IMG/VR virus record: IMGVR_UViG_3300044994_000060
Span: 1-33,252 of that record
From: a virus
Reading direction: 5' to 3' (one strand)
Length of the DNA: 33,252 nt
The notes beneath the pieces were generated by a model. That model was not told the DNA's origin. It was given only the letters and a program-made list of their open reading frames with translations, and did no database searches. Position 1 is the first letter of the stretch, and every line of letters begins with the position of its first letter. Shown one piece after another: positions 4,964 through 21,867 of this stretch. A program made the translations under genes and the position numbers.

Positions 4964-5027
4964 CTATCTGTATGCTCTACCCTACCCTGTCCTACCTATC
5001 TGTATGCTCTACCCGTATGCTCTACCC
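4964..5027. repeat. Direct repeat of 19 bp plus a partial third copy
   Basis: CTATCTGTATGCTCTACCC occurs exactly at 4964-4982 and 4996-5014. A third partial copy lacking the first six bases starts at 5015. It directly follows the GATAGG array and precedes the CCTACAGG array. Confidence 0.8.
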
Positions 5028-5075
5028 TACAGGACCCCTACAGGGAACCTACAGGTCCCTGCAGGACCCTACAGG
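5026..5075. repeat. Five CCTRCAGG octamers at 10-11-bp spacing
   Basis: CCTACAGG starts at 5026, 5037, 5048 and 5068, and CCTGCAGG starts at 5058. Steps are 11, 11, 10 and 10 bases, close to one helical turn, so all copies face the same side of the DNA. This fits a protein-binding array near the genome end, comparable in place to the CCTAAAG repeats of T7. Confidence 0.75.
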
Positions 5076-5159
5076 GACCTATCCGGTAAGGTTAGGGTTT
5101 CCCAGTTCACAAGGTTCTAGGATGCCGCTACATTACGCCCATCGCAACAACTGGAGACT

Positions 5160-5271: not shown

Positions 5272-5300
5272 TTGACAAAGCTCCCGGTTTGTGGTATAGT
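5272..5300 (+). promoter_or_regulatory. Near-consensus host sigma70 early promoter
   Basis: TTGACA at 5272-5277 matches the -35 consensus fully. A 17-base spacer follows, then TATAGT at 5295-5300 (5 of 6 -10 positions). Transcription would start near 5306-5308. It lies just after the repeat-rich end region and before the first early gene, where T7 carries A1-A3. It is the only strong host promoter I see and probably drives the whole early and middle block through the phage RNA polymerase. Confidence 0.9.
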
Positions 5301-5739
5301 CCGGATACAGTGCCGCCATGGTACCGCAGCCCACCGTAGGGTGACGTGCTGCTACCCGGCTAGCACTGCGTGGTGAAAATGCGATGACGGGCCACAATGC
5401 CCTAGCAGAGTACCGGCCACGATAAACATGCGGCAAACCTATGCCACCTCGGGGAAAATGGTGCAGTGTAGTGCTGCATAGTGGAACCCGGGGAAGAGCA
5501 TAGCGGCAGGGTAAAGACCCTGAAGTCGGCGCCTACAGCGTACCGGCGGATCTACCCGGCAGCCCCATATTCGGTTCCGCGTCAAATACGATGCGGAAGC
5601 GAGATAACTGCTACGGCGATTGTGGCGATGATAACGTAGGGCAAAGTCCACGCCCGCCCCATAGTGACAGTGTGGGGGATAGCGTCTACCGGATGCTATC
5701 CCCTGCACTGTCGCAGGACAACCTATCGGAGAATCCCGA
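5301..5739 (+). other. Long non-coding early leader
   Basis: About 430 bases between the host promoter and the first early gene with no credible open frame. Visible structure includes TTCCGC (5575-5580) pairing with GCGGAA (5593-5598) and the 18-bp hairpin listed separately. The remaining sequence shows no tRNA or known riboswitch that I can recognise. Confidence 0.5.
5666..5712 (+). promoter_or_regulatory. 18-bp leader hairpin just before the first early gene
   Basis: Arms 5666-5683 and 5695-5712 pair at all 18 positions in the + strand RNA (two adjacent G-U pairs) around an 11-base loop. The minus-strand transcript would have two mismatches instead, so RNA on this strand seems to be what is selected. 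It ends 16 bases before the ribosome site of the first early gene. It could be an RNase III site as in T7 early mRNA, or a translation control. Confidence 0.6.
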
Positions 5740-6201: not shown

Positions 6202-6216
6202 TCGGCTAGAGTGTAG

Positions 6217-6261
6217 CCCCTTGCCGGCCCGAAGGCCGGCTCGGGGGTGCGCTTTTGCACC
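6217..6261 (+). promoter_or_regulatory. Two-hairpin leader element A
   Basis: Hairpin 1: GCCGGCC (6223-6229), CGAA loop, GGCCGGC (6234-6240), extended by CCCC (6217-6220) with GGGG (6243-6246). Hairpin 2: GGTGC (6246-6250), GCTTTT loop, GCACC (6257-6261). It follows the stop of one gene and precedes the GGAGGG site of the next. It shares the AGCCCC start and two-stem plan with elements B, C and E. Confidence 0.65.
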
Positions 6262-6278
6262 GCAACTGGAGGGTAGCT

Positions 6279-6605
6279 ATGCAACCCGCAAGCATTCCGC
6301 GCCGGCAGGTCGGCGTGGCGCCGCGGTTTACCGTGGTATTTGAGGAATCCTGCGCCCGCGTGGTCCGGATGGCGGACTGGATGACCGTGGAAGTTGTTCC
6401 CGTCACCGGACACTCGACCCGTAGGGCCGCCTACAGGGCGGCTTCCGATATCGCGGAAGCGCTGAACGGCGCCGATCCCGATCCCGTGCTGCCCTTGTCG
6501 GCCGCGCCGCGGGCGTTCACCTCGTTCCTCGGCGCGCACAACTACGCGGCCCGTGCTGGTGGAACCGTCCGCCGCACGGGTTACTGGACGTGGGCGGTAG
6601 AGTGA
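6279..6605 (+). CDS. Unknown early protein
   Basis: A 108-residue protein, ATG 6279 with GGAGGG at 6268-6273. It has a short beta-like N-terminal part (APRFTVVFEESCARVVRMADWMTVEVVPV) and a helix with RAAYRAASDIAEALNGAD, whose AA..IA..LN.G pattern recurs in the protein at 9263. No known domain. The stop TGA overlaps a GTG start of a zinc-knuckle frame (GTGA at 6602-6605). Confidence 0.7.
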   Translation: MQPASIPRRQVGVAPRFTVVFEESCARVVRMADWMTVEVVPVTGHSTRRAAYRAASDIAEALNGADPDPVLPLSAAPRAFTSFLGAHNYAARAGGTVRRTGYWTWAVE

Positions 6606-6802
6606 AAGTGTGTCCGCTGTGCGGCGGCGGGCACAACCTAAGCAAGTGCCCTCGGTGGATTCCGCCGCGGGGCAGTGGCGGGTGCAATCCCGCCGTGAAC
6701 ATGGAGCATCGCCATGATGGCATACCTTCTCGCGTTTCTGATCGGCGGCAGTATCGACGTGCAGCCGCCGCGCATCCTGGCGCCGTTCGCAACGGAAGCT
6801 GA
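6602..6802 (+). CDS. Possible small zinc-knuckle protein, overlapping the next gene
   Basis: A 66-residue frame from GTG 6602, overlapping the previous stop as GTGA. It begins MKVCPLCGGGHNLSKCPRW, a Cys-x2-Cys-x3-His-x4-Cys knuckle like short zinc fingers seen in other phage small proteins. The last 30 codons run out of frame through the start of the next gene (6714-6902) and are Arg/Ala-rich, which could be a shadow. The knuckle lies before that overlap and is not explained by another gene. There is no independent ribosome site, so expression would depend on coupling. Confidence 0.5.
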   Translation: MKVCPLCGGGHNLSKCPRWIPPRGSGGCNPAVNMEHRHDGIPSRVSDRRQYRRAAAAHPGAVRNGS

Positions 6803-6902
6803 ATGCTTCCGGGCAGCCAAGGAACTGGCGGAACAGCACCCTGAAGTCAAGGCGATCGGCAAGTTCGCTTGCCTTCGAGTGCTGCCTGACCGGGAATCCT
6901 GA
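6714..6902 (+). CDS. Small early protein with hydrophobic N-terminus
   Basis: A 62-residue protein, ATG 6714 (an ATG also at 6717) with GGAG at 6703-6706. Residues 2-13 (MAYLLAFLIGGS) are hydrophobic, so it may be membrane-associated or exported. The rest (TEAECFRAAKELAEQHPEVKAIGKFACLRV) looks like a compact helix-strand unit with two cysteines. Function not recognised. It is followed directly by leader element B. Confidence 0.6.
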   Translation: MMAYLLAFLIGGSIDVQPPRILAPFATEAECFRAAKELAEQHPEVKAIGKFACLRVLPDRES

Positions 6903-6921
6903 ACCCTACTGGCATCGTAGC

Positions 6922-6964
6922 CCCTAGCCCGTCACGTGGCGGGCCTGGGAGTGCGATGGCGCTC
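6922..6964 (+). promoter_or_regulatory. Two-hairpin leader element B
   Basis: Hairpin 1: CCC-TA-GCCCG (6922-6931) with CGGGC-CT-GGG (6940-6949). Hairpin 2: GAGTGC (6949-6954), GATG loop, GCGCTC (6959-6964). The string AGCCCCTAGCCC and the CTGGGAGTGC joint are shared with element C. No gene of normal size follows. Only a 5-codon frame (ATG 6956 to TAA 6971-6973) is present. Confidence 0.65.
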
Positions 6965-6973
6965 GTCGGCTAA

Positions 6974-7036
6974 GTCTTGCCCCGCGGTCGCTGCGCCCGC
7001 GGGGCGTCTTCGGTAAGACGCTAAACGGTGGAAGAC
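6974..7036 (+). ncRNA. Structured RNA segment between elements B and C
   Basis: A perfect 9-bp stem GCCCCGCGG/CCGCGGGGC (6979-6987 with 6997-7005) is followed by GTCTT-CGGT-AAGAC (7006-7019). GTCTT also occurs at 6974 and AAGAC at 7032, so the stems can form in alternative ways. There is no gene in the 232-base gap 6903-7134. A stable phage RNA or switch is possible, but no known family is recognised. Confidence 0.35.
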
Positions 7037-7073
7037 GGGCGGCAGCCCAATAGCAGCGCGCTGATAGTTCAGC

Positions 7074-7115
7074 CCCTAGCCCACTGCGGTGGGCCTGGGA
7101 GTGCACTGTCGCACT
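7074..7115 (+). promoter_or_regulatory. Two-hairpin leader element C
   Basis: Hairpin 1: CCC-TA-GCCCAC (7074-7084), TGCG loop, GTGGGC-CT-GGG (7089-7099). Hairpin 2: AGTGC (7100-7104), ACTGTC loop, GCACT (7111-7115). Compared with B, the arm bases change on both sides (GCCCG/CGGGC against GCCCAC/GTGGGC) so that pairing is kept. It precedes the kinase-fold gene. Confidence 0.7.
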
Positions 7116-7134
7116 GCATCATGGAACGTGTACC

Positions 7135-7800
7135 ATGAACAATGTCTCGTTGCGGGTCCTGCTCGCGGCCGAACGCCTTCTGCAGATGGCCCGTGAAGGT
7201 GTCATCGTTGGTGTCGAGGACGGCTACGCTAGTGACGCGGTGGCCGTGCACCGCACTGGTAGGGCACTCCAAGACGCTGGGGTGAGCTGCAAGATTCTCG
7301 GCCACGGAGCGTACAGCGCGGTGCTGGACGTGGACCCTGATGGGCCCTGGGTTCTGAAGGTGAGCCTGTCCGACGTTGACGGGTACCATGAGTTCGTGGA
7401 GCATCTTCCCAGCCTGCGGGAGGACTTTCAATGGGCGGCCGAGCATCTTCCGCACGTCATCAAGCTGGGCCGTGAGAAGCACGTTCACGTGTACGCCGTG
7501 GAGCGCTTGGTGAACCCAAACACCGACGAGTTTGAGCTTCTTCGGTCCCACGGGGATTCGCTCGCTACGAACTCTTACCTTACGATCAGCGACGAACTGA
7601 AACGAATCGCGAGGCGGATCGGGCTCACCAGCGACTTCAGTACCAGTTGGGATTGGCACAATGTGATGCTGCGCATCTGCCCCCTAACCGGAGAGCCCAC
7701 CCCGGTCATCACTGACCCCTGGTCGCACCAGGAAGAAGACTGCGATTGGTGCGAAGAGCCGGAAGAGGAAGAGGAAGAGGAAGAGGACTGCGACGAGTAG
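7135..7800 (+). CDS. Kinase-fold early protein with acidic tail
   Basis: A 221-residue protein, ATG 7135. A protein-kinase-like fold is suggested by a Gly-rich loop LGHGAYSAVL (55-64), then VLKV with Lys75 in the ATP-lysine position. Next comes SWDWHNVMLR (171-180) as a shortened catalytic loop (Asp173, His175, Asn176), and VITDP with Asp194 in place of DFG. The order and spacing match small atypical kinases in other podophages, but the Asp-to-Asn distance is shorter than usual, so activity is uncertain. The last 25 residues are mostly Glu/Asp with two Cys. T7 also has an early kinase (gp0.7), though a different protein. Element C lies directly upstream, and a 6-codon frame (7121-7138) overlaps the start as ATGA. 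Confidence 0.75.
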   Translation: MNNVSLRVLLAAERLLQMAREGVIVGVEDGYASDAVAVHRTGRALQDAGVSCKILGHGAYSAVLDVDPDGPWVLKVSLSDVDGYHEFVEHLPSLREDFQWAAEHLPHVIKLGREKHVHVYAVERLVNPNTDEFELLRSHGDSLATNSYLTISDELKRIARRIGLTSDFSTSWDWHNVMLRICPLTGEPTPVITDPWSHQEEDCDWCEEPEEEEEEEEDCDE

Positions 7801-7805
7801 TCCAC

Positions 7806-7858
7806 GGGCCCCTACGGTGGGGCCCTTCCACAGCACCACACGTGGTGTTGCGGAAGGG
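7806..7858 (+). promoter_or_regulatory. Leader element D with competing hairpins
   Basis: GGGCCCC (7806-7812) can pair with GGGGCCC (7819-7825). CCCTTCC (7823-7829) can pair with GGAAGGG (7852-7858), enclosing CACCA/TGGTG (7834-7838 with 7843-7847). The two outer stems share bases 7823-7825, so they partly exclude each other. It sits between the kinase-fold gene and the next start and is the most divergent member of the leader family. Confidence 0.55.
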
Positions 7859-7887
7859 CTCACTTCTGAGCCTGATCGGAGGACCAC

Positions 7888-8109
7888 ATGGTCTATGACA
7901 GAACCGCGGCCATCATCGCCGCCCGCCATGCGCTCGCGGAACTGGAGCGCGATCCGAGCACGCCGCCGGGCGTTATCTCCTGCGCGAAGCTGGCGATCCA
8001 CTGTGTCGAGGAAGAACGTCCTATCCCGCGATGGGTCCAGGACACGCTGCACTTGCACGCGGCTTTCCGCCAGGGGCAGGACCGTTACGGGAAGGGGCTG
8101 GAGCGATGA
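7888..8109 (+). CDS. Unknown small early protein
   Basis: A 73-residue, mostly helical protein, ATG 7888 with GGAGG at 7878-7882. The sequence AAIIAARHALAELERDPSTPPGVISCAKLAIHCVEEE suggests two helices around a Pro turn, with two cysteines in the second. It overlaps the next start as ATGA. No known family recognised. Confidence 0.7.
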   Translation: MVYDRTAAIIAARHALAELERDPSTPPGVISCAKLAIHCVEEERPIPRWVQDTLHLHAAFRQGQDRYGKGLER

Positions 8110-8468
8110 ACGGCGAGATCGAAACCGCGCTGCGGAACATCTACTGCGCGCTGCTCAGCGGGAACGGGCAGCACAACAACTTCGTTCTGGAGGTTCGTTG
8201 CGGTATCTGCTTCAACGTGGGCGTTCAGATGGAGACCCTGATGGACAAGCGACTGGCGGTGGACTGGCTGCGCCGGGCGTTCTCTCGCTTGGGGCTTGAC
8301 CAGGAGTACCCCGTGAAGCATCCGCGTATGCTGGCCGGGCAGGCCTACTCCCTGGTCGGCATCATGTGGCCGCACCCGGAGTTGAAGCCCGAGCACCGTG
8401 AATACGCGGAGAACCGCGTCGCGCTGCTGCGCCAGTTGATTGACCTCGCTACAACAGACGGAGTCTGA
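8106..8468 (+). CDS. GIC/YPV-domain early protein (paralog 1)
   Basis: A 120-residue protein, ATG 8106, overlapping the previous stop by 4 bases with GGAG at 8100-8103. It carries CGICFN (32-37), then LRRAFSRLGLDQEYPVKHPRM (55-75), AYSLVGIMW and an EYAENRVALLRQLI helix. The same motifs in the same order fill the C-terminal 100 residues of the next protein, so the two are related by duplication. Short proteins with GIC-N and YPV motifs occur in many phages without a known role. I know of no tested function. Confidence 0.75.
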   Translation: MNGEIETALRNIYCALLSGNGQHNNFVLEVRCGICFNVGVQMETLMDKRLAVDWLRRAFSRLGLDQEYPVKHPRMLAGQAYSLVGIMWPHPELKPEHREYAENRVALLRQLIDLATTDGV

Positions 8469-8469
8469 C

Positions 8470-9192
8470 ATGGAATTGGTCCTGAACATCGACGTTGGAA
8501 CGAAAGGCGCCCCTTTCACCGCGGTTGTCGAATTACTGATGCGCGGCACGAGGCTGCGCGACTTCTCCGTGCTGGAGAAGCACGGCGACACGGCTGTCGT
8601 TGGATACGAAAAGCTGCCATGCGCCGCATGGCGCCGGAGGGTCTATGAACTCTCCGACGATCTCGGGGAAGACTGCATCGCAGCGCTCGCCACTCGTGGA
8701 CCGGGCGCTGGCCGCGGCCTACTGATCGGCCCAGACTCGGCGGACTGGGAACCGTTCCGCATGGAACTGTTCTCGCTGCCGAAAGGCTCCCCGCCAGTTT
8801 TCGACGACTGGCGGCACGCAGACGATCTCGTCATGCAGCACCTGCTTCTGGACGTGTACCGGGCCGCTGTCGAAGGCGGATCGGGTGTTCCTGGCTGGGT
8901 GTTCCAGCGTAATGCTGGGATTTGCCACAACACCAAGGAACTGGCCTTCCGTAGGCGTGTGTGGGGGGACGGCGTCAGCGCGCGGCTGAAACACGCCTTC
9001 GAGGAGATGGGTCTCGACCCGAATTACCCGGTCGCGCACCCCACGATGAGCAACCAGGCCGCGTATGACAGCATACACGACGTCTGGAGGACGGAGCCCG
9101 ACGACTATACGCCCACGGAAGACGTGCTCTACGCCATCGCGAGGTTCGACCTCCTGGGAGAGCTGATCGAGCGGTTCACTCCTCGCTTCTGA
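8470..9192 (+). CDS. Early protein with C-terminal GIC/YPV domain (paralog 2)
   Basis: A 240-residue protein, ATG 8470 with CGGAG at 8459-8463. Residues 1-110 are a mixed alpha/beta region of unknown kind. Residues about 141-236 are a second copy of the domain in the preceding gene: AGICHN (149-154), LKHAFEEMGLDPNYPVAHPTM (173-193), AAYDSIHDVW and a closing ARFDLLGELIERF helix. The extra N-terminal domain suggests duplication followed by fusion, or loss in the shorter copy. It is followed by leader element E. Confidence 0.75.
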   Translation: MELVLNIDVGTKGAPFTAVVELLMRGTRLRDFSVLEKHGDTAVVGYEKLPCAAWRRRVYELSDDLGEDCIAALATRGPGAGRGLLIGPDSADWEPFRMELFSLPKGSPPVFDDWRHADDLVMQHLLLDVYRAAVEGGSGVPGWVFQRNAGICHNTKELAFRRRVWGDGVSARLKHAFEEMGLDPNYPVAHPTMSNQAAYDSIHDVWRTEPDDYTPTEDVLYAIARFDLLGELIERFTPRF

Positions 9193-9204
9193 CGGCAGGC
9201 AGAC

Positions 9205-9248
9205 TAAGCCCCTACCCGCAAGGTGGGGGCTTACTCGGCATGTGCCGA
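9205..9248 (+). promoter_or_regulatory. Two-hairpin leader element E
   Basis: Hairpin 1: 9205-9216 pairs with 9222-9233 over 12 positions (one G-U), loop CGCAA. The 5' arm contains AAGCCCCTACC. Hairpin 2: TCGGCA (9235-9240) with TGCCGA (9243-9248). A CGGAG site and ATG follow at once. The layout is the same as elements A-C. Confidence 0.7.
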
Positions 9249-9262
9249 CAACGGAGATGATT

Positions 9263-10628: not shown

Positions 10629-10654
10629 GCATCTTCATGGAAGCCAGCCGATGA
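10625..10654 (+). CDS. 9-codon bridging micro-ORF (MSIFMEASR)
   Basis: ATG 10625 overlaps the primase stop as ATGA, and its own TGA at 10652-10654 overlaps the helicase ATG (10651) as ATGA. It lacks a stable domain at nine residues. A role as a translational relay between primase and helicase is inferred from the two exact overlaps. Confidence 0.4.
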   Translation: MSIFMEASR

Positions 10655-11955
10655 GCCTGGACATCACCACGCTGAGGCTGCTGCGGACGCGGGAGCGGTA
10701 CGAGCAGTTCGCCTCGGCTATCCCTGACCGCGCCGTCTCGGCGCACACGAAGGCGCTGATCAAGGACTTCGGCAGGATGTTCGCCGAAAGCCCTGAGCTG
10801 CAGCGCATCGAGCCCGAGCCCTTCATGCTGTGGCTGAAGATCGCCAGGCCGAAGCTCAGCGAAGACGCGCTCGCCATCATCGCCGGCGTCATGCGGCAGG
10901 TGGACTCCGACCCGGAGCCCGGCGTGGAGAGCGCCATCATGGGGCGCCTGTACGAGGCCGAGAGCGCGGCACGCATCGCGGACATCCTGGCCGCGTGGAA
11001 CGACGGCGGCGAGGTCAACCTGCAGTACATGGTGCAGCGAGAGGCGGAGCAGCTGGCCCTGCGCCAGAACCGCGTGGTCGTGAACCCGCAGGTGCTGACG
11101 CCAATCGAGGAACTGCTCGACGAAGACGCGAACGACACCGGGCTGCGGTTCAGGCTCAAGTGCCTGGACGCGCACATCAAGCCCCTGGTGCCTGGGGACT
11201 TCGTGGTCCTGGCGGCCCGCCCCGACAAGGGCAAGACCAGCCTGTGCGCTGACATCCTGACGCACATGGCCGCCCAGGTGGACACACTGTACCCCGGAGA
11301 GAACCGCAGCATCCTGTGGTTCAACAACGAGGGGCCTGGCCGGCGCATCGTGAAGCGCGCCTTCCAGGCCGCCCTGGGGGCCACCGTCGAGGAGATGGTG
11401 GCGATGCGTGCGCTGCCGCCGAAGGACCCGAAGTACGGGCACCGGCTGCGCGAGGCCTACGCCGAGGCGCTGGGCGGCCGACCGGGTGTGCTGCGCGTCA
11501 TGGACATCCACGACATGTGGAACCACGAGGTCGAGGCGCTGATCCAGCGCTACCGGCCGGCGCTGGTGCTGTTCGACATGATCGACAACATCAAGTTCGG
11601 AGGCTCCACCCTCAACGGCGGCGAGCGCACGGACCAGCTGCTGGAGAGCATGTACCAGTGGGCCCGCATGATGGGCGTGAAGCACAACACGGCCGTCATG
11701 GCGACCAGCCAAGTCAGCGCCGAGGGCGACGGGATGCAGTACCCGACGCTGCCGATGCTGAAGGACAGCCGCACTGGCAAGCAGGGCGCCGCCGACGTGA
11801 TCATCACGATGGGCGCCGTCAACGACCCGACGCTGGCGAACAGCCGGTACCTGGGGACCACGAAGAACAAGAAGGCGCGCACCGGCGTGCCGGCCAGCCC
11901 GCGTGCTGAGGTCTACTTCGACGCTGACCGATGCCGTTTCAAGGAGTTCGGATGA
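10651..11955 (+). CDS. Replicative DNA helicase (DnaB/T7 gp4-type)
   Basis: A 434-residue helicase that unwinds DNA 5' to 3' at the fork as a ring. An N-terminal helical region (1-150) is followed by the RecA-like core. Walker A is ARPDKGKTS (189-197, Lys195), with Ala where many have Gly. Walker B is ALVLFDMIDN with Asp309. A sensor-like ATSQVSAEG segment and a C-terminal Arg/Lys-rich loop (LGTTKNKKARTG) follow. The start at ATG 10651 overlaps the micro-ORF before it. The end carries an AAGGAG site (11941-11946) for the next gene, whose ATG overlaps the stop. Confidence 0.92.
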   Translation: MSLDITTLRLLRTRERYEQFASAIPDRAVSAHTKALIKDFGRMFAESPELQRIEPEPFMLWLKIARPKLSEDALAIIAGVMRQVDSDPEPGVESAIMGRLYEAESAARIADILAAWNDGGEVNLQYMVQREAEQLALRQNRVVVNPQVLTPIEELLDEDANDTGLRFRLKCLDAHIKPLVPGDFVVLAARPDKGKTSLCADILTHMAAQVDTLYPGENRSILWFNNEGPGRRIVKRAFQAALGATVEEMVAMRALPPKDPKYGHRLREAYAEALGGRPGVLRVMDIHDMWNHEVEALIQRYRPALVLFDMIDNIKFGGSTLNGGERTDQLLESMYQWARMMGVKHNTAVMATSQVSAEGDGMQYPTLPMLKDSRTGKQGAADVIITMGAVNDPTLANSRYLGTTKNKKARTGVPASPRAEVYFDADRCRFKEFG

Positions 11956-12506
11956 AGAAGGTGTACGTGATCGGTTCCCTCAGGAACCCCGACGTGCCAT
12001 TCGTGGCCGCGCAGCTGCGTGAAGCAGGCTTCGACGTGTTCGACGACTGGTACGCTGCGGGCCCGGAGGCGGACGACCATTGGAAGAAGTACGAGGAGAG
12101 CCGCGGCCACACCTACGAGAAAGCGCTCGATGGGTTTGCCGCGGACCACGTCTTCAGCTACGACAAGTTCCACCTGGACTCGGCTGACGCCGCAGTCCTG
12201 GTCCTGCCGGCCGGGCGCTCGGCGCACCTGGAGGCTGGGTACATGATCGGCAAGGGCCGGCCCGTGTTCATCCTGCTGGACGAAGTCTCCGGGAACCTCC
12301 GTTGGGACGTGATGTACAAGTTCGCCGCCGGCGTGACGCGCGACATCTCCGTCATCGCGGAGGGCTTGAAGCGCGCCCTTGCGCCCGAGAACGATACGGC
12401 CCTGGGCCCACTCGCCACCCTGCTCAGCGAGCCCTTCCAGGCGCAGGGCCCAGCCCTCGGGGCCGCTGGCAACTGGCGTGACATCGCGCAGAAGGAGATT
12501 GAGTGA
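11952..12506 (+). CDS. Nucleoside 2-deoxyribosyltransferase-like protein
   Basis: A 184-residue protein, ATG 11952, with a Rossmann-like start VYVIGSLRN (4-12) and DVFDDWY (28-34). A C-terminal signature SADAAVLVLPAGRSAHLEAGYMIG places Glu94 where the nucleophile of deoxyribosyltransferases lies. The family exchanges bases between deoxynucleosides or cuts N-glycosidic bonds. In a phage it could recycle host nucleosides, make a modified base or act against nucleotide-signal defences. It is translationally coupled to helicase (upstream) and DNA polymerase (GTGA overlap downstream), so a replication-linked nucleotide role is likely. Substrate unknown. Confidence 0.75.
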   Translation: MKKVYVIGSLRNPDVPFVAAQLREAGFDVFDDWYAAGPEADDHWKKYEESRGHTYEKALDGFAADHVFSYDKFHLDSADAAVLVLPAGRSAHLEAGYMIGKGRPVFILLDEVSGNLRWDVMYKFAAGVTRDISVIAEGLKRALAPENDTALGPLATLLSEPFQAQGPALGAAGNWRDIAQKEIE

Positions 12507-14944
12507 GGTCCTGGGACATCGAGACTGGCACCCGCGCGAAGCTGAAGCGCAAGGCCAGCCCGTTCAACGCAGGCAACCACGTCGTGGTGCACGCATGGAA
12601 GGACCTGGCGCAGCCCAAGGTCCATGTGCGGTACTTCGGCAGGACGCCTCCGAAGCCGGGCTGGCTGGGCGAGGTCCTGGAGGGCACCAAGCTGCTCGCC
12701 GGGTTCAACATCAAGTTCGACCTGCTACACGCCCTGCAGTGCCCGGTGAACCTGGGGCTGTGGATGGAGTGGGTCGCCAACGGCGGCCAGGTGTGGGACT
12801 GCCAGCTGGCCGAGTACCTGCTCAACGGCATGGGCCGCGCAGACCACATGCTGTCGATGGACGAGGTCGCTCCGCGCTACGGTGGCAGCCTCAAGGTGGA
12901 CGAGGTCAAGGCCCTGTGGGCGGCCGGAGTCCAGACCGAGGACATCGACCCGGGCCTGCTGGAGCGCTACCTGGCCGGCGGCCCCGACGAGGACGGGGTC
13001 GAGCAGCCCGGCGACATCGGCAACACCGAGGCCATCGCACTGGCGCAGATCAGGCGGGCCCGCGAAGCCGGGCAGCTCAAGAGCATCATGCTCAACATGG
13101 GCGCGCTCCTGTTCAGCGTCGAGGCCGAGCGCAACGGCATGTACGTGGACATGGAGCTGGGCCTCAAGCTGGCCGAGGAGCTGCAGGCCAAGGTCCAGGA
13201 GCTGAGCGCGAAGCTCAACAGCTTCCTGCCCGCGCTGCCTGAAGGCTTCGAGTTCAAGTGGTCCAGCCGGCACCACAAGTCGGCGCTGATCTTCGGCGGC
13301 ACGATCCACTACCCGCGCCGGGAATGGCAACTGGCGGACGGTTCGTGGACGTTCGAGGCCCCTCCGCCGGCCGACATGGTCGGCTCCAGCCTGTACCCAG
13401 AGTTCGCCTACGCCCAGAAGGACGAGACGCACTACGTCCTGGAGGACGGCACCACGGCCGAGTGCTCGTGGTGGGAGCGCTGCCGGGACACGGAGTGGCA
13501 GGGCAGCCCGCCGCCCGGCAAAGACCGGGCCGTGTTCAAGGGCGGGAAGAACGCCGGCGAGCCGAAGACGAAGAAGGTCAAGGCCCCGGACTACTCCAAG
13601 CCCAAGAGCCGCATGGGCACCGGGAAGTTCACGTTCCCGGGCTTCACACGTCCGAAGCCTGAGTGGGAAACGTCTGAGCCTGGCGTGTACTCCGTGAACG
13701 ACGAGATCATCGAGGAGCTGGGCTCACGCAACATCCCGTTCCTCAACGCCCTGGCTGAACTGCAGGCGGCGGCCAAGGACCTCGGCACGTACTTCATCGT
13801 GCGCGACGAATCCGGCGGCGCCAAGGGGATGCTGTCCCTGGTGGACACCGACGGTGTCGTGCACCACAAGATCAACCACAACAGCACGGTCACCGGCCGC
13901 CTGAGCAGCAGCGACCCGAACCTGCAGAACCTGCCGAAGGGCAGCAAGTCCGACGTCAAGCGCGTCTTCGTGTCCCGCTTCGGGCCCGATGGCAAGATCG
14001 TCCAGTCGGACTACAAGTCCCTGGAGGTCTACGTCCAGGCGATCCTGACGGAGTGCGCGCAGCTGGTCGCCGACTTGAAGGCCGGCCTGGACATGCACGT
14101 CAAGCGCCTGGCCCTGAAGGAGGGGATGCCGTACGACGAGGTCCTGAAGCTCTGCAAGGGGGACGGGGACACGCCTCCGGACCCCGAGTGGGACAAGAAG
14201 CGGACGGCAGCGAAGGTCATCTCGTTCCAGCGGGCCTATGGCGCCGGCGCTCCCAAGATCGCGGCCAGCACTGGCCTGCCGGTCGAGGACATCGCCGCCA
14301 TGATCCTCGCGGAAGACGAGGAGTACCCGGAGATCGAGGAGTACTACCGGGCCCTGACCCGCACCCTGGAGGAGAACCGCAGGCCGACCGGCCGCGCGAT
14401 ACCGCACCCGGAGGCCAAGGGGGTCATGTGCCACCTGGGCGAATCCACCTTCCGCACGCCGGACGGCAAGCTCTACAAGTACCAGGAGCAGCCGGTTCCC
14501 GAGTTCGCGCTGAAGCGCGGCAAGACGAGCGGGTTCTCCCCGACCGAGATCAAGAACTACGTCGTGCAGGGCACGGGCGGCGAGTGGATGAAGGCGGCCA
14601 TGTGGCTGCTGGTCCGGGCCTTCTACGCCCGCAAGAACTTCGACGGCAAGGCCTTGCTGGTCAACACCGTGCACGATTCCGCGATGGCCGACGTGCACCC
14701 GGACGTGGCCTTCGAGGCAGCTGCCCTGATCCATGCTTGCATGGAGGCCGCTTCCGACCTGATGGCCTGGCACTTCAGCTGGGACATCGCCCTCCCTGTG
14801 CCCTCGGACACGACCTGGGGGCAGTCCATGATCGAAGAACTCCCAATCCCCGGCATCAACTCCCGGGCCGCTGAGCTGCGCGCGGAACTGCGCGCCACGT
14901 ACATGAAGGGCTTCGTGCCCAACTACCTGAAGGGAATCCAATGA
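12503..14944 (+). CDS. Family A DNA polymerase with 3'-5' exonuclease
   Basis: An 813-residue replicative polymerase, longer than T7 gp5 (704). The N-terminal proofreading domain shows WDIETG (Asp5, Glu7), NIKFD (Asp73) and VWD (Asp99). The polymerase domain shows NHNSTVTGRLSSSDPNLQNLP, motif A IVQSDYKSLE with Asp503, motif B KVISFQRAYGAG and motif C VHDS with Asp725. A Lys/Pro-rich stretch near residues 350-390 may be an insertion compared with T7. The start is GTG 12503 (GTGA overlap) with AAGGAG at 12492-12497. Whether it uses host thioredoxin like T7 cannot be told. Confidence 0.95.
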   Translation: MRSWDIETGTRAKLKRKASPFNAGNHVVVHAWKDLAQPKVHVRYFGRTPPKPGWLGEVLEGTKLLAGFNIKFDLLHALQCPVNLGLWMEWVANGGQVWDCQLAEYLLNGMGRADHMLSMDEVAPRYGGSLKVDEVKALWAAGVQTEDIDPGLLERYLAGGPDEDGVEQPGDIGNTEAIALAQIRRAREAGQLKSIMLNMGALLFSVEAERNGMYVDMELGLKLAEELQAKVQELSAKLNSFLPALPEGFEFKWSSRHHKSALIFGGTIHYPRREWQLADGSWTFEAPPPADMVGSSLYPEFAYAQKDETHYVLEDGTTAECSWWERCRDTEWQGSPPPGKDRAVFKGGKNAGEPKTKKVKAPDYSKPKSRMGTGKFTFPGFTRPKPEWETSEPGVYSVNDEIIEELGSRNIPFLNALAELQAAAKDLGTYFIVRDESGGAKGMLSLVDTDGVVHHKINHNSTVTGRLSSSDPNLQNLPKGSKSDVKRVFVSRFGPDGKIVQSDYKSLEVYVQAILTECAQLVADLKAGLDMHVKRLALKEGMPYDEVLKLCKGDGDTPPDPEWDKKRTAAKVISFQRAYGAGAPKIAASTGLPVEDIAAMILAEDEEYPEIEEYYRALTRTLEENRRPTGRAIPHPEAKGVMCHLGESTFRTPDGKLYKYQEQPVPEFALKRGKTSGFSPTEIKNYVVQGTGGEWMKAAMWLLVRAFYARKNFDGKALLVNTVHDSAMADVHPDVAFEAAALIHACMEAASDLMAWHFSWDIALPVPSDTTWGQSMIEELPIPGINSRAAELRAELRATYMKGFVPNYLKGIQ

Positions 14945-18558: not shown

Positions 18559-19435
18559 ATACCGCATCCTGAAGGCTGTGGAGTACGACAAGCTGTCCGC
18601 CAGTACCCGCAAGGAGTACCCGTCCCTGAAGTCCATGGTGGCGGCCGGCTGGGACTGCCAGCCGAAGTACGACGGCGTGTTCGGCATGGTCCGAGTCCCG
18701 GAGGACGGGGAGGAGTGGCGCATCGAGACCCGGACGGGGCAACCGATCCTGTCTTGCCAGCACATCCTGGAGGGGATCAAGGGCCTGGGCCTGGCGCCAG
18801 GCACCCTGCTGCTCGGCGAGCTGTGGGTACCCAACACGCCTCAGGCGAAGATCAGCGGGATGGTCCGCAGCTACGATCTGCAGACGGACCTGGACTTCGT
18901 GCTGTTCGACATGGTTCGGGACCCGGCTGATCCGTACTGGTTCCGCTACTCCCAGCTCCAGTCCCTGTGCCCGCAGTTGGGCCTCGGTGGGCCCGGCGAC
19001 TCCCTGTTCTACACACTCAGCTTCTGGTCGGAGCACATGGACCCGGAGGAGGAATCGAGGTACTGGGCCGAGGAAATTGGGTATGACGGGATCATTCTCC
19101 GAGACCCCGAGGCCCCGTACACCACCGGCCTTGCCAAGGCGGGGCAGATCGTGAAGGTCAAGCCTACCCTCACAATCGACCTCGCCGTTGTAGGGGTGGA
19201 GGAGGGCAAAGGGAAGCACGCCTGCAAGATGGGCGCCCTGCTGCTGAAGCTCGGGGACAAGGTGCAGCGCGTGGGCACCGGCTTCTCCGACGCCGAGCGT
19301 GACTACTGGTTCAACGCCCCGCTGGACCCGGCACCTATCGTCGAGATCGAGTACATGGGGATGACCGAGGCCGGCCTGCTCCGGGAGCCCAGGTTCAAGG
19401 GGCAGCGGTTCGACAAGGAGCGGCCCGACGCATGA
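18551..19435 (+). CDS. ATP-dependent DNA ligase
   Basis: A 294-residue ligase starting at GTG 18551, with GAGGAG at 18538-18543. The adenylated lysine motif is KYDG (Lys39-Gly42). Motif III is LLGELWV (Glu90), IIIa is FVLFDMV, IV is EEIGYDGIILRD and V is QIVKVKP. This is near the size of compact phage ligases (T7 gp1.3 is 359 residues), with an OB domain in the last 90 residues. It seals nicks in replication. The stop overlaps the RNA polymerase start by 4 bases. Confidence 0.92.
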   Translation: MSEYRILKAVEYDKLSASTRKEYPSLKSMVAAGWDCQPKYDGVFGMVRVPEDGEEWRIETRTGQPILSCQHILEGIKGLGLAPGTLLLGELWVPNTPQAKISGMVRSYDLQTDLDFVLFDMVRDPADPYWFRYSQLQSLCPQLGLGGPGDSLFYTLSFWSEHMDPEEESRYWAEEIGYDGIILRDPEAPYTTGLAKAGQIVKVKPTLTIDLAVVGVEEGKGKHACKMGALLLKLGDKVQRVGTGFSDAERDYWFNAPLDPAPIVEIEYMGMTEAGLLREPRFKGQRFDKERPDA

Positions 19436-21867
19436 TGACCCAGGTCGAAGTCGAGGAGAAGATGTACCTTGACGGCCGGTCCCGGATGCTCGCCAAGCTG
19501 GATGAAACCGAGGTCAAGGGGCGGGCGGGGGACGCCCCCTACGCCGGCCACGTGTATCGGGCCTTCGTCCAGCCGCTGGCGGAGATCATCCGGAAGGCTG
19601 TCGTCAGCCCGGAGCCCGGGCAGGGCATGGCGCACGTCGCCCTTCTGAAGCCTCTCGACCCGGACGCCGTTGCCTACCTGGCCGTGAGGCACGCCCTGGC
19701 GGCGCTACTGACCGGCGAGGAGCAGCATCACCGCGGCCTGGGATACGCTCTCGGCCGAACCGTGCACCGGGAGCTGGTCCTGGAGCGCTTCGAGGACCTG
19801 GCGCCGGACCTGTACCACACGCTCGCCAAGGACTTCGCCAGGCGCATGAGCAAGAGCGAGCGGCACCGCATGGCCGTGTACGCCATGCAAGCGAAGAAGG
19901 CCGGCCTGGACCTGAACGCCTGGGGCATCGGCGCCCGGGACCAGGTGGGCCTGTGGCTGCTCGGGCGGCTGGAGGGCCTGGGAATGGTCATCATCGGCCC
20001 GAGCCTGCAGCGCGTGAACTACAAGAGGGAGTACCGTGTCGTGACCCTGGCGCCGGAAGTCCGGCAGACCCTGGTCAAGATCAAGGACTACCTGGCCGAG
20101 ACCAGCCCGACGCTGGGCCCGTGCGTCGAGCGCCCGCTGCCGTGGAACGGCAACACCGGGGGCGGCTGGCACACCCCGCGGATGCGGAAGGCGCACCGCT
20201 ACCTGGTCAAGGCGCACGCCAGCGCCCGCCCGGCCGTGGCCGCGGCTGACCTGAGCATCCCGTGCGCCGCCGTCAACGCGCTCCAGAACACCGCCTGGCG
20301 GGTCAACAAGCGGGTCCTGGAGGTCGTCCTGGCGGTCGCCAAGACCCGACACAGCCTCGGCGAGATCGAGACCCAGGTGGAGCCTCCGAAGCCCGAACGG
20401 ATGCCCTGGATGGACGCCGAGCTGCCGAACGGCATGACGCCGGAGCAGGAGGCCCAGCTGCGGGCCTGGAAGCGGGCGATGGTCAGCTGGTACGAGGAGG
20501 TCAAGCTGCGCGGGACCAAGTTCGGCCGGTTCTACACGGCCACCCGGCAGGCCCTGATGTTCAAGGACTACCCGGAGCTGTTCTTCGTGTACTTCCTGGA
20601 CAGCCGCGGCCGGGCGTACCCGCAGACCTACGGCCTCAACCCGCAGGGCAGCGACCTGCAGAAGGCGCTGCTGGAGTTCGCGGAGGGGAAGCCGCTGCGC
20701 ACGGACTCCGCGGTGCGCTGGTTCCTCGTGCACGGCGCGAACAGCTGGGGCTTCGACTCCGCCCCGCTGCCGGAGCGTGAGCAGTGGGTCCGGTCGAATC
20801 GGGACCTGATCCTCCGGGTCGCCGCTGACCCGGAGAACAACCTGGAGTGGGCCGACGCCGACAACCCACTGCAGTTCCTGGCTTGGTGCCTGGAGTTCGA
20901 GCAGTGGATGCGCGACCCCCACGGGTTCGAGTCCCGCATCCCGGTGGCCCTGGACGGGTCCTGCAACGGGCTGCAGCACTTCTCCGCCATGCTGCGCGAC
21001 GAGATCGGCGGGGAAGCAACGAACCTCACGCCGTCCGACACCAAGAGCGACGTGTACGCGAGGGTCGCCGAGGCCGCGCAGGCGGACCTGGAGGCCGACC
21101 CCGAGCGCTCGGAGCTGGGGGACCGCTGGCTGGCCCACAAGATCAACCGGAGCGTGACGAAACGCCCGGTCATGACCACACCCTACGGGATCAAGCCCAG
21201 GAGCGCCCGCGAGTACGTAGTCGAGGACTACCTCAAGCCCGGTAAGGCGCCCGAGTTCGAGCCGCATGAGTACTGGGCCGCTGCTGGCGAGGCCATGAAG
21301 TACATTCACCCCGCCATCGGCAAGGTCGTCGTAAAGTCCAGGGAAGCCATGAACTGGCTGTCCGCTGCCGGCAAGCTGGTCTCCGACCGGCTAGCCCAGG
21401 TCGCCGACGATCCGGTCCTGACGTGGGTCACGCCTAGCGGCTTCGTCGCATCCCAGGCGTACTTCGACGTGCAGGTGCACCGCATCCGCACGCACCTGAA
21501 CGGCACAGTCCGCATCCGTGTGCTGAGTGAGAACGACAGCCCGGACTGCAGGCAGCACGCCCAGGGCATGGCGCCGAACTTCGTGCACAGCATGGACGCA
21601 GCGCACATGCACCTGACGACAGCCAGGCTGGCTGCCGAAGGTGTGCGCAGCCTGGCGATGGTGCACGACTCGTTTGCCACGCACGCCGCCGACACTGACC
21701 GCATGGCGCGCGTCCTGCGCGAAGAGTTCGTCGCCATGTACCGGAACCACAACCCGCTGGAGGACTTCCGAGCCAGGTTTCTGGAACTCGGTGATCTTCC
21801 TCCGGTTCCTGCTATGGGTACGTTGAACCTGGAGGGAGTGCTCGACAGTGAGTTCTTCTTCAGCTGA
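19432..21867 (+). CDS. Single-subunit phage RNA polymerase (T7 type)
   Basis: An 811-residue polymerase, against 883 in T7. It starts at ATG 19432 (another ATG at 19435) overlapping the ligase stop. Motif A is VALDGSCNGLQHFSAM with Asp508, motif B is RSVTKRPVMTTPYG with Lys577 and Tyr585, and motif C is MVHDSFATH with Asp746. The region SRGRAYPQTYGLNPQGSDLQ is also conserved. The protein ends FFFS, comparable to the T7 FAFA foot. The segment 660-690 matches the place of the promoter-specificity loop. It is the last gene of the host-transcribed block, and a candidate promoter for it lies 14 bases after its stop. Confidence 0.97.
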   Translation: MMTQVEVEEKMYLDGRSRMLAKLDETEVKGRAGDAPYAGHVYRAFVQPLAEIIRKAVVSPEPGQGMAHVALLKPLDPDAVAYLAVRHALAALLTGEEQHHRGLGYALGRTVHRELVLERFEDLAPDLYHTLAKDFARRMSKSERHRMAVYAMQAKKAGLDLNAWGIGARDQVGLWLLGRLEGLGMVIIGPSLQRVNYKREYRVVTLAPEVRQTLVKIKDYLAETSPTLGPCVERPLPWNGNTGGGWHTPRMRKAHRYLVKAHASARPAVAAADLSIPCAAVNALQNTAWRVNKRVLEVVLAVAKTRHSLGEIETQVEPPKPERMPWMDAELPNGMTPEQEAQLRAWKRAMVSWYEEVKLRGTKFGRFYTATRQALMFKDYPELFFVYFLDSRGRAYPQTYGLNPQGSDLQKALLEFAEGKPLRTDSAVRWFLVHGANSWGFDSAPLPEREQWVRSNRDLILRVAADPENNLEWADADNPLQFLAWCLEFEQWMRDPHGFESRIPVALDGSCNGLQHFSAMLRDEIGGEATNLTPSDTKSDVYARVAEAAQADLEADPERSELGDRWLAHKINRSVTKRPVMTTPYGIKPRSAREYVVEDYLKPGKAPEFEPHEYWAAAGEAMKYIHPAIGKVVVKSREAMNWLSAAGKLVSDRLAQVADDPVLTWVTPSGFVASQAYFDVQVHRIRTHLNGTVRIRVLSENDSPDCRQHAQGMAPNFVHSMDAAHMHLTTARLAAEGVRSLAMVHDSFATHAADTDRMARVLREEFVAMYRNHNPLEDFRARFLELGDLPPVPAMGTLNLEGVLDSEFFFS

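Follow-up and report, generated by a model that had tools for sequence, protein, structure and literature searches.

What are the hairpins that recur between the early genes of a phage, and what do they do there? The window, by which we mean the whole stretch of DNA analysed (33,252 nucleotides (nt), IMG/VR record IMGVR_UViG_3300044994_000060), is the genome record of a phiKMV-like Autographivirus, and an initial annotation of it had proposed a family of five two-hairpin leader elements, here A to E, between its early genes. On sequence comparison, A, B and C are members of one RNA family of predicted pseudoknots of about 55 nt, while D (7806) and E (9205) proved to be unrelated hairpins. The core of the proposal, an unfamiliar family of covarying structured leader RNAs, is supported.

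Elements A, B and C

Two covariance models were used, R1 (nine sequences, including A and C and without B) and R2 (44 sequences). The parts of the three elements are as follows.

6208-6212, + strand: element A, 5' pseudoknot strand AGAGU, pairing with the hairpin-2 loop GCUUU(U) at 6251-6256, two pairs being G-U
6213-6214, + strand: element A, 2-nt linker GU
6215-6261, + strand: element A, AG and the third nucleotide, hairpin 1 and hairpin 2 (51.8 bits, E=2e-10 in the window; a training sequence of R1)
6913-6916, + strand: element B, 5' pseudoknot strand CAUC, with four Watson-Crick pairs to the hairpin-2 loop GAUG
6917-6918, + strand: element B, linker GU
6919-6963, + strand: element B, hairpin 1 and hairpin 2 (37.3 bits, E=4.4e-7 in the window; outside the R1 training set)
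7063-7068, + strand: element C, 5' pseudoknot strand GAUAGU, with six pairs to the loop ACUGUC
7069-7070, + strand: element C, linker UC
7071-7115, + strand: element C, hairpin 1 and hairpin 2 (57.3 bits, E=1e-11)

All three follow the pattern AG[C]-CCC-U[AU]-hairpin-[UC][UC]-GGG-hairpin 2. The three outer pairs of hairpin 1 are separated by a 2x2 internal loop (UU/UC or UA/CU) from an inner stem of 6-7 base pairs (bp); in A these are 3 bp, UU/UC and 7 bp, and hairpin 2 takes up 6246-6261. Folding and comparison place hairpin 2 directly against hairpin 1 with no spacer. Both hairpins are thus present as annotated, but they are not independent, because the 5' strand pairs with the loop of hairpin 2, a pairing that had been missed. 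A strict descriptor of structure plus pseudoknot matched exactly A, B and C on the + strand of the window, and had no match on its - strand, in 60 shuffles of the window or in 16 relatives that lack the element.

A covarying pseudoknot

Read 5' to 3', the element consists of a strand of 4-6 nt (P1a), the linker N-Y, the bases A-G-M (M being C or A), hairpin 1 and hairpin 2 (P4). The consensus of hairpin 1 is a 3-bp outer helix, a 2x2 U-rich internal loop and an inner helix of variable length. The loop of P4 pairs with P1a, and these pairings predict an H-type pseudoknot whose first loop contains hairpin 1 as an insert.

The hairpins are strongly supported by covariation. Compensatory changes on both sides were found in 13 of the 14 modelled pairs, and the covariation score of 0.679 compares with 0.149 after shuffling and with no more than 0.188 when the register is slid. 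The change of paired arms between B and C, reported earlier from one genome, is real and far stronger between phages, and the outcome that had been named as speaking against the family, a lack of covariation in relatives, was not what we observed. Altogether 99% of the alignment cells were paired, with G-U intermediates, although this percentage is inflated since the alignment was fitted to the structure; the pseudoknot pairing, whose 5' strand lies outside the model, is not affected. As the G-U intermediates occur in covarying pairs, selection appears to act on the RNA and not on the DNA.

When the linker was held at 2 nt, P1a and the loop paired at 248 of 277 positions (89.5%), compared with 32-53% in other registers and with a mean of 65.8% (sd 1.8, maximum 72.6) when the loops were permuted among elements. 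Scored separately, the pseudoknot gave z=6.6, with 0 of 20000 permutations reaching it. Strand and loop have changed together in a number of copies, labelled here by our record handles: ACAGC/GCUGU in L016:1373, UCAGC/GCUGA in L026:7662, AAAUU/AAUUU in L047, GAUAGU/ACUAUC in L069:2215, GAAC/GUUU in L018 and GGCU/AGCC in L109. Two copies, L089:1159 and L034:6542, gave no clean pseudoknot fit. Taken together, the comparison makes the pseudoknot structure close to certain.

Linker base -1 is a pyrimidine in all but one of 56 copies. The base just before hairpin 1 varies with the first pair of hairpin 2: C accompanies A-U or G-C, and A accompanies C-G or U-A. This rule is followed in 42 of 43 cases (shuffled mean 29; 0/20000), both types being found within single genomes, and it suggests a base triple between the nucleotide before hairpin 1 and the first P4 pair. 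The AG, the UGC/GCA of P4 and the 2x2 loop are also strongly conserved.

Distribution of the family

The search of related phages by covariance model, which had been put forward with the initial annotation, was made with R1, built from A, C and relatives, and then with R2. It yielded about 65 distinct copies at 31 loci, all in the orientation of the genes and up to five per genome. The features expected of a single RNA family are shared: covarying hairpins 1 and 2, a pseudoknot joined by a 2-nt linker, and gene orientation. A structural descriptor run over 80 relatives selected by their helicase recovered the same architecture with other stem sequences, and a DNA pattern of the B/C version matched, with perfect stems, one relative of the window phage and several unrelated phages. 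In related phages the copies are confined to a zone 1.7-6.9 kb 5' of the helicase start, and scans of their whole records added no late-gene copies. The element is mostly present where the helicase is closest to that of the window and is absent from many more distant phages. Two isolates carry it, Curvibacter phage P26059B with four copies and Aquamicrobium phage P14 with two.

Some candidates were set aside. The copies in L102, L099 and L003 are weak and are not counted as secure; a descriptor match at L032:18276, which is not in the early region, resembles a chance hit, as does the single archaeal match (17.3 bits) of a scan of the genome collection. A pattern for variants of the A type hit 14 contigs, none of which the model confirmed, and it served as a negative control. 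Nucleotide similarity search among named phages gave nothing useful.

Beyond the related phages, two records of 57-60 kb (L005 and L007) hold one identical element each, between non-homologous genes. The L005 record has a phrog_62 helicase, a terminase and a phrog_332 adaptor; the phrog_414 polymerase was not found in either, an absence that is only suggestive as the search control was silent in cellular genomes. One more element, with a different pseudoknot sequence, is placed at a stop codon in a 36-kb record (L109) whose tested open reading frames (ORFs) match no PHROG.

Position at gene junctions

Across the family the element lies between genes. From the end of the upstream stop codon to the element the median distance is 5 nt, and the gap is 3-6 nt in 27 of 54 copies, so that in these the stop codon falls within P1a. 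From hairpin 2 to the next start codon the distance is 18 nt in the median and mostly 14-24 nt; a minority of copies have 34-48 nt, often with a further small hairpin between. The downstream proteins form about 38 unrelated groups. Homologues of the largest of these (11 members) have ordinary leaders in other phages, and homologous genes occur both with and without the element, which is thus facultative. Because the downstream genes are unrelated and their homologues can do without it, the element is likely to be a general junction module and not a gene-specific switch.

The earlier statement that each element follows a stop and precedes a start holds family-wide, but in the window it fails for C on the upstream side and for B on the downstream side. 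A lies 13 nt 3' of its upstream stop and 17 nt before the next start codon (6279). B lies 16 nt 3' of the stop of the ORF at 6714-6902, with no good start directly behind it; what comes next is element C and not a gene. C has no ORF of at least 40 amino acids upstream, and the ORF at 7135-7800 starts 19 nt 3' of it. The stretch between B and C also holds, at 6978-7010, a hairpin rich in GC (GCCCCGCGG...CCGCGGGGC). It has a weak T tail and may be a terminator or one more junction hairpin.

Copies of the element stand before protein-kinase-like genes in the window (7135-7800), in L016 (725-1366) and in phage P14 (L107:3559-4107). The proteins of L016 and P14 match phrog_15752 (T7 gp0.7-like), and for that of the window there is a weak pairwise match alone (E=0.002). 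The copy in L016 (666-709) is nearly identical to element C.

The two remaining elements of the initial annotation are these.

7806-7866, + strand: element D, strong hairpins at a cistron junction (no model match, filters off)
9205-9245, + strand: element E, two hairpins at a cistron junction (6.6 bits, E=5.9)

Neither belongs to the family. D is not listed by R1 even with the filters off and folds into unrelated stems, while the R1 score of E is at noise level and its hairpin CCCCUACC/GGUGGGG is a stem paired throughout, without the 2x2 internal loop. Both lie at junctions between blocks of overlapping or abutting genes, in positions equivalent to those of the elements, as if different hairpins could fill the same junction role.

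The early region

The setting of the elements in the window is given by the following features, besides which adaptor and tail genes were found.

5272-5300, + strand: early promoter, probably of the host sigma-70 type, TTGACA-N17-TATAGT (extended -10; agrees with the consensus at 11 of 12 positions)
10651-11955: DnaB-like helicase
12503-14944: DNA polymerase
19432-21867: single-subunit RNA polymerase (phrog_414)

The promoter lies upstream of the element-bearing operon and is followed by a non-coding leader and then the early genes. As it precedes the early genes, the elements are in a region expected to be read by the host RNA polymerase, and the gene for the phage's own RNA polymerase lies about 14 kb further on. 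No + strand terminator above chance was found in the early region of the window. At most of its other early junctions, beyond those that bear an element, the genes overlap or nearly abut.

Two observations concern the region around the promoter. This strong promoter and the roughly 430 nt of non-coding early leader after it occupy 5272-5739, for which a 29-nt match in one relative (L012) was the only one, and just 5' of the promoter, at 5000-5110, there are tandem-like repeats around CCTACAGG/TACCC.

Other phages hold further candidates for structured RNA. A conserved non-coding RNA of about 200 nt follows the first early element in four of them (L002:5305-5500, L037:5258-5452, L023:5672-5868 and L028:4338-4540). 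Its core is GGCATAATGA, and of its 26 consensus pairs 11 have changed on both sides, as judged from four sequences only; in all probability it is a further new RNA with a structure of its own. The relative L012 has, 3' of its helicase gene (12612-13272), a sub-threshold match to a group I intron (24.6 bits; gathering threshold 50).

Relation to known RNAs

We rate the family as new, and it is apparently undescribed, although its role may prove to be of a known kind. Rfam 15 gave no match in the window at the gathering threshold, and at a permissive threshold (E up to 5) none at the elements of L026 and L012; no description of the RNA family was found in the open-access literature. The nearest known RNA is the put sites (putL/putR) of phage HK022, each a phage RNA of about 70 nt with two stem-loops and a 5' strand paired into a hairpin, acting in cis in early transcripts (PMC9378689). 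In contrast, put has one copy per early operon, its pseudoknotted stem comes first, and it has an A9-G35 bridge and a triplex strand at 21-25, whereas here several copies lie at gene junctions and the pseudoknotted hairpin is the second. R2, run with the filters off on HK022 20000-40751, gave at best a partial hit of 12.9 bits (E=0.16), the put positions being unannotated in that record. We do not count put as a member of the family, since the model does not match it and the first copies here come after the first early gene or genes and not in the leader.

The nearest positional analogue is the ESAS of cluster K mycobacteriophages, which with the SAS are repeated inverted-repeat elements just 5' of many start codons in one phage genome (PMC3203893), but these are sequence repeats: ESAS are inverted repeats of 17 bp in the DNA, imperfect but conserved in sequence, and they go together with a start-associated sequence (PMC3203893). 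Here the arms vary freely and compensate, the pseudoknot is kept, and the element is linked to the upstream stop as well as to the downstream start, which sets it apart from SAS/ESAS. Nor does it look like a riboswitch that sequesters the Shine-Dalgarno sequence, as this sequence lies 3' of hairpin 2 in the listed copies and the downstream genes fall into so many groups. In the repZ (repBA) leader of IncI and IncB plasmids, a pseudoknot just 5' of the Shine-Dalgarno sequence folds depending on a ribosome that terminates nearby. However, that leader has another topology and belongs to a single plasmid locus under antisense control, not to a repeated junction module.

Function of the element

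The reading we favour, with a probability of roughly 0.4, is that the element is a cis-acting cistron-junction module of early messenger RNAs (mRNAs) made by the host RNA polymerase. Because P1a often holds the upstream stop codon, folding would wait for the ribosome leaving the upstream gene: a ribosome whose stop codon overlaps P1a would, on terminating, cover P1a and the linker, and the knot would form only after that ribosome leaves, with the linker N-Y-A-G-M lying along P4. Once folded, the knot may keep the two cistrons apart by barring the sliding or coupling of terminated ribosomes, may present the next Shine-Dalgarno sequence as a free single strand just 3' of a rigid structure, and may protect the ends of the neighbouring messages. 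The presence of the element in phages without a detected phage RNA polymerase also counts for this reading. Several points weigh against it. The closeness to stop and start may only reflect compaction of the genome around something that is kept untranslated; the stops before A and B in the window are far enough off to lie outside P1a; B has no adjacent start; and plain hairpins can fill such places, as at junctions D and E. The conserved UGC/GCA, AG and 2x2 loop suggest a specific partner (protein, ribosome or polymerase), for which a passive insulator would have no need.

The main rival, which we regard as unlikely, is that the elements are processing sites of the host RNase III (or RNase E) that give short messages with structured ends. 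The setting is the same, a T7-like polycistronic early mRNA transcribed by the host polymerase with several structured sites between early genes, and in T7 five intercistronic sites are cut by RNase III (PMC4858673). The irregular hairpins of T7 differ, however, from the two-hairpin pseudoknot with conserved linker, probable triple and short variable stems seen here. With the 2x2 loop counted in, no continuous stem exceeds about 10-14 bp, against the long irregular stem of about 20 bp or more of a T7 RNase III site, although coaxial stacking on hairpin 2 could lengthen it. Stem length also differs between copies of one genome, which leaves no constant cleavage register, and the conserved pseudoknot, 2-nt linker and triple would be superfluous for RNase III. 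The T7 kinase stimulates RNase III, and the phrog_15752 genes of two element-bearing phages come right after an element, but kinase homologues are as common without the element (9/31 vs 5/27). That the element binds a regulator acting in trans (an early phage protein, a host protein or a small ligand), through which the translation of the early genes would be switched jointly, seems quite improbable. Such a site would explain why several copies per genome keep their shape while their sequences vary, and why the AG, the U-rich loop, the pyrimidine at -1 and the UGC/GCA are fixed; on the other hand, the fold does not take in the Shine-Dalgarno sequence, which leaves no built-in means of simple occlusion, and the downstream genes are unrelated. 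A co-occurrence search found no early gene family specific to element-bearing phages, which makes the early-protein binding site suggested in the initial annotation less likely.

Antitermination of the put kind, in which the nascent RNA would bind the host polymerase and make it resistant to pausing and termination on its way to the phage polymerase gene, is distinctly doubtful. The put RNA of HK022, with its two stems and paired 5' strand, acts without protein (PMC9378689). In put, the target on the polymerase is the beta' zinc-binding domain. The elements are confined to the region read by the host polymerase and, as said, are found also where no phage polymerase was detected. But besides the lack of a model match in the HK022 segment searched, the elements follow the first gene or genes in P26059B, P14 and the window and do not form a promoter-proximal leader; they are repeated, whereas one put copy acts over 10 kb; and the early region of the window has no + strand terminator above chance. 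Least credible is a feature of the DNA itself, either inverted repeats at which gene cassettes recombine or GC-rich hairpins that arose by chance. The element that L005 and L007 share in identical form, between genes that are not homologous, would fit such recombination. Against a DNA feature stand the G-U pairs, the orientation, which always follows transcription, the pseudoknot, which would be meaningless in a DNA cruciform, and the empty shuffled windows; the G-U pairs and the pseudoknot come close to ruling out a DNA inverted repeat.

Returning to the cistron-junction module, we tentatively propose, at somewhat less than even odds, a new class of phage RNA: a triplex-stabilised pseudoknot that is repeated at cistron junctions and has spread across phage groups, whose folding would be gated by ribosome termination, so that each copy may set the translation or fate of both neighbouring messages. 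T7 processes its early message with host RNase III. For the separation of early cistrons in T7-like phages that have no known RNase III sites, the family offers a concrete, repeated and strongly covarying RNA that is directly testable in two isolates, Curvibacter phage P26059B and Aquamicrobium phage P14. In case folding is indeed gated by the ribosome, the element would be a compact natural insulator of cistrons whose design rule is simple: 5 nt at the stop codon pair with a loop of 5 nt.

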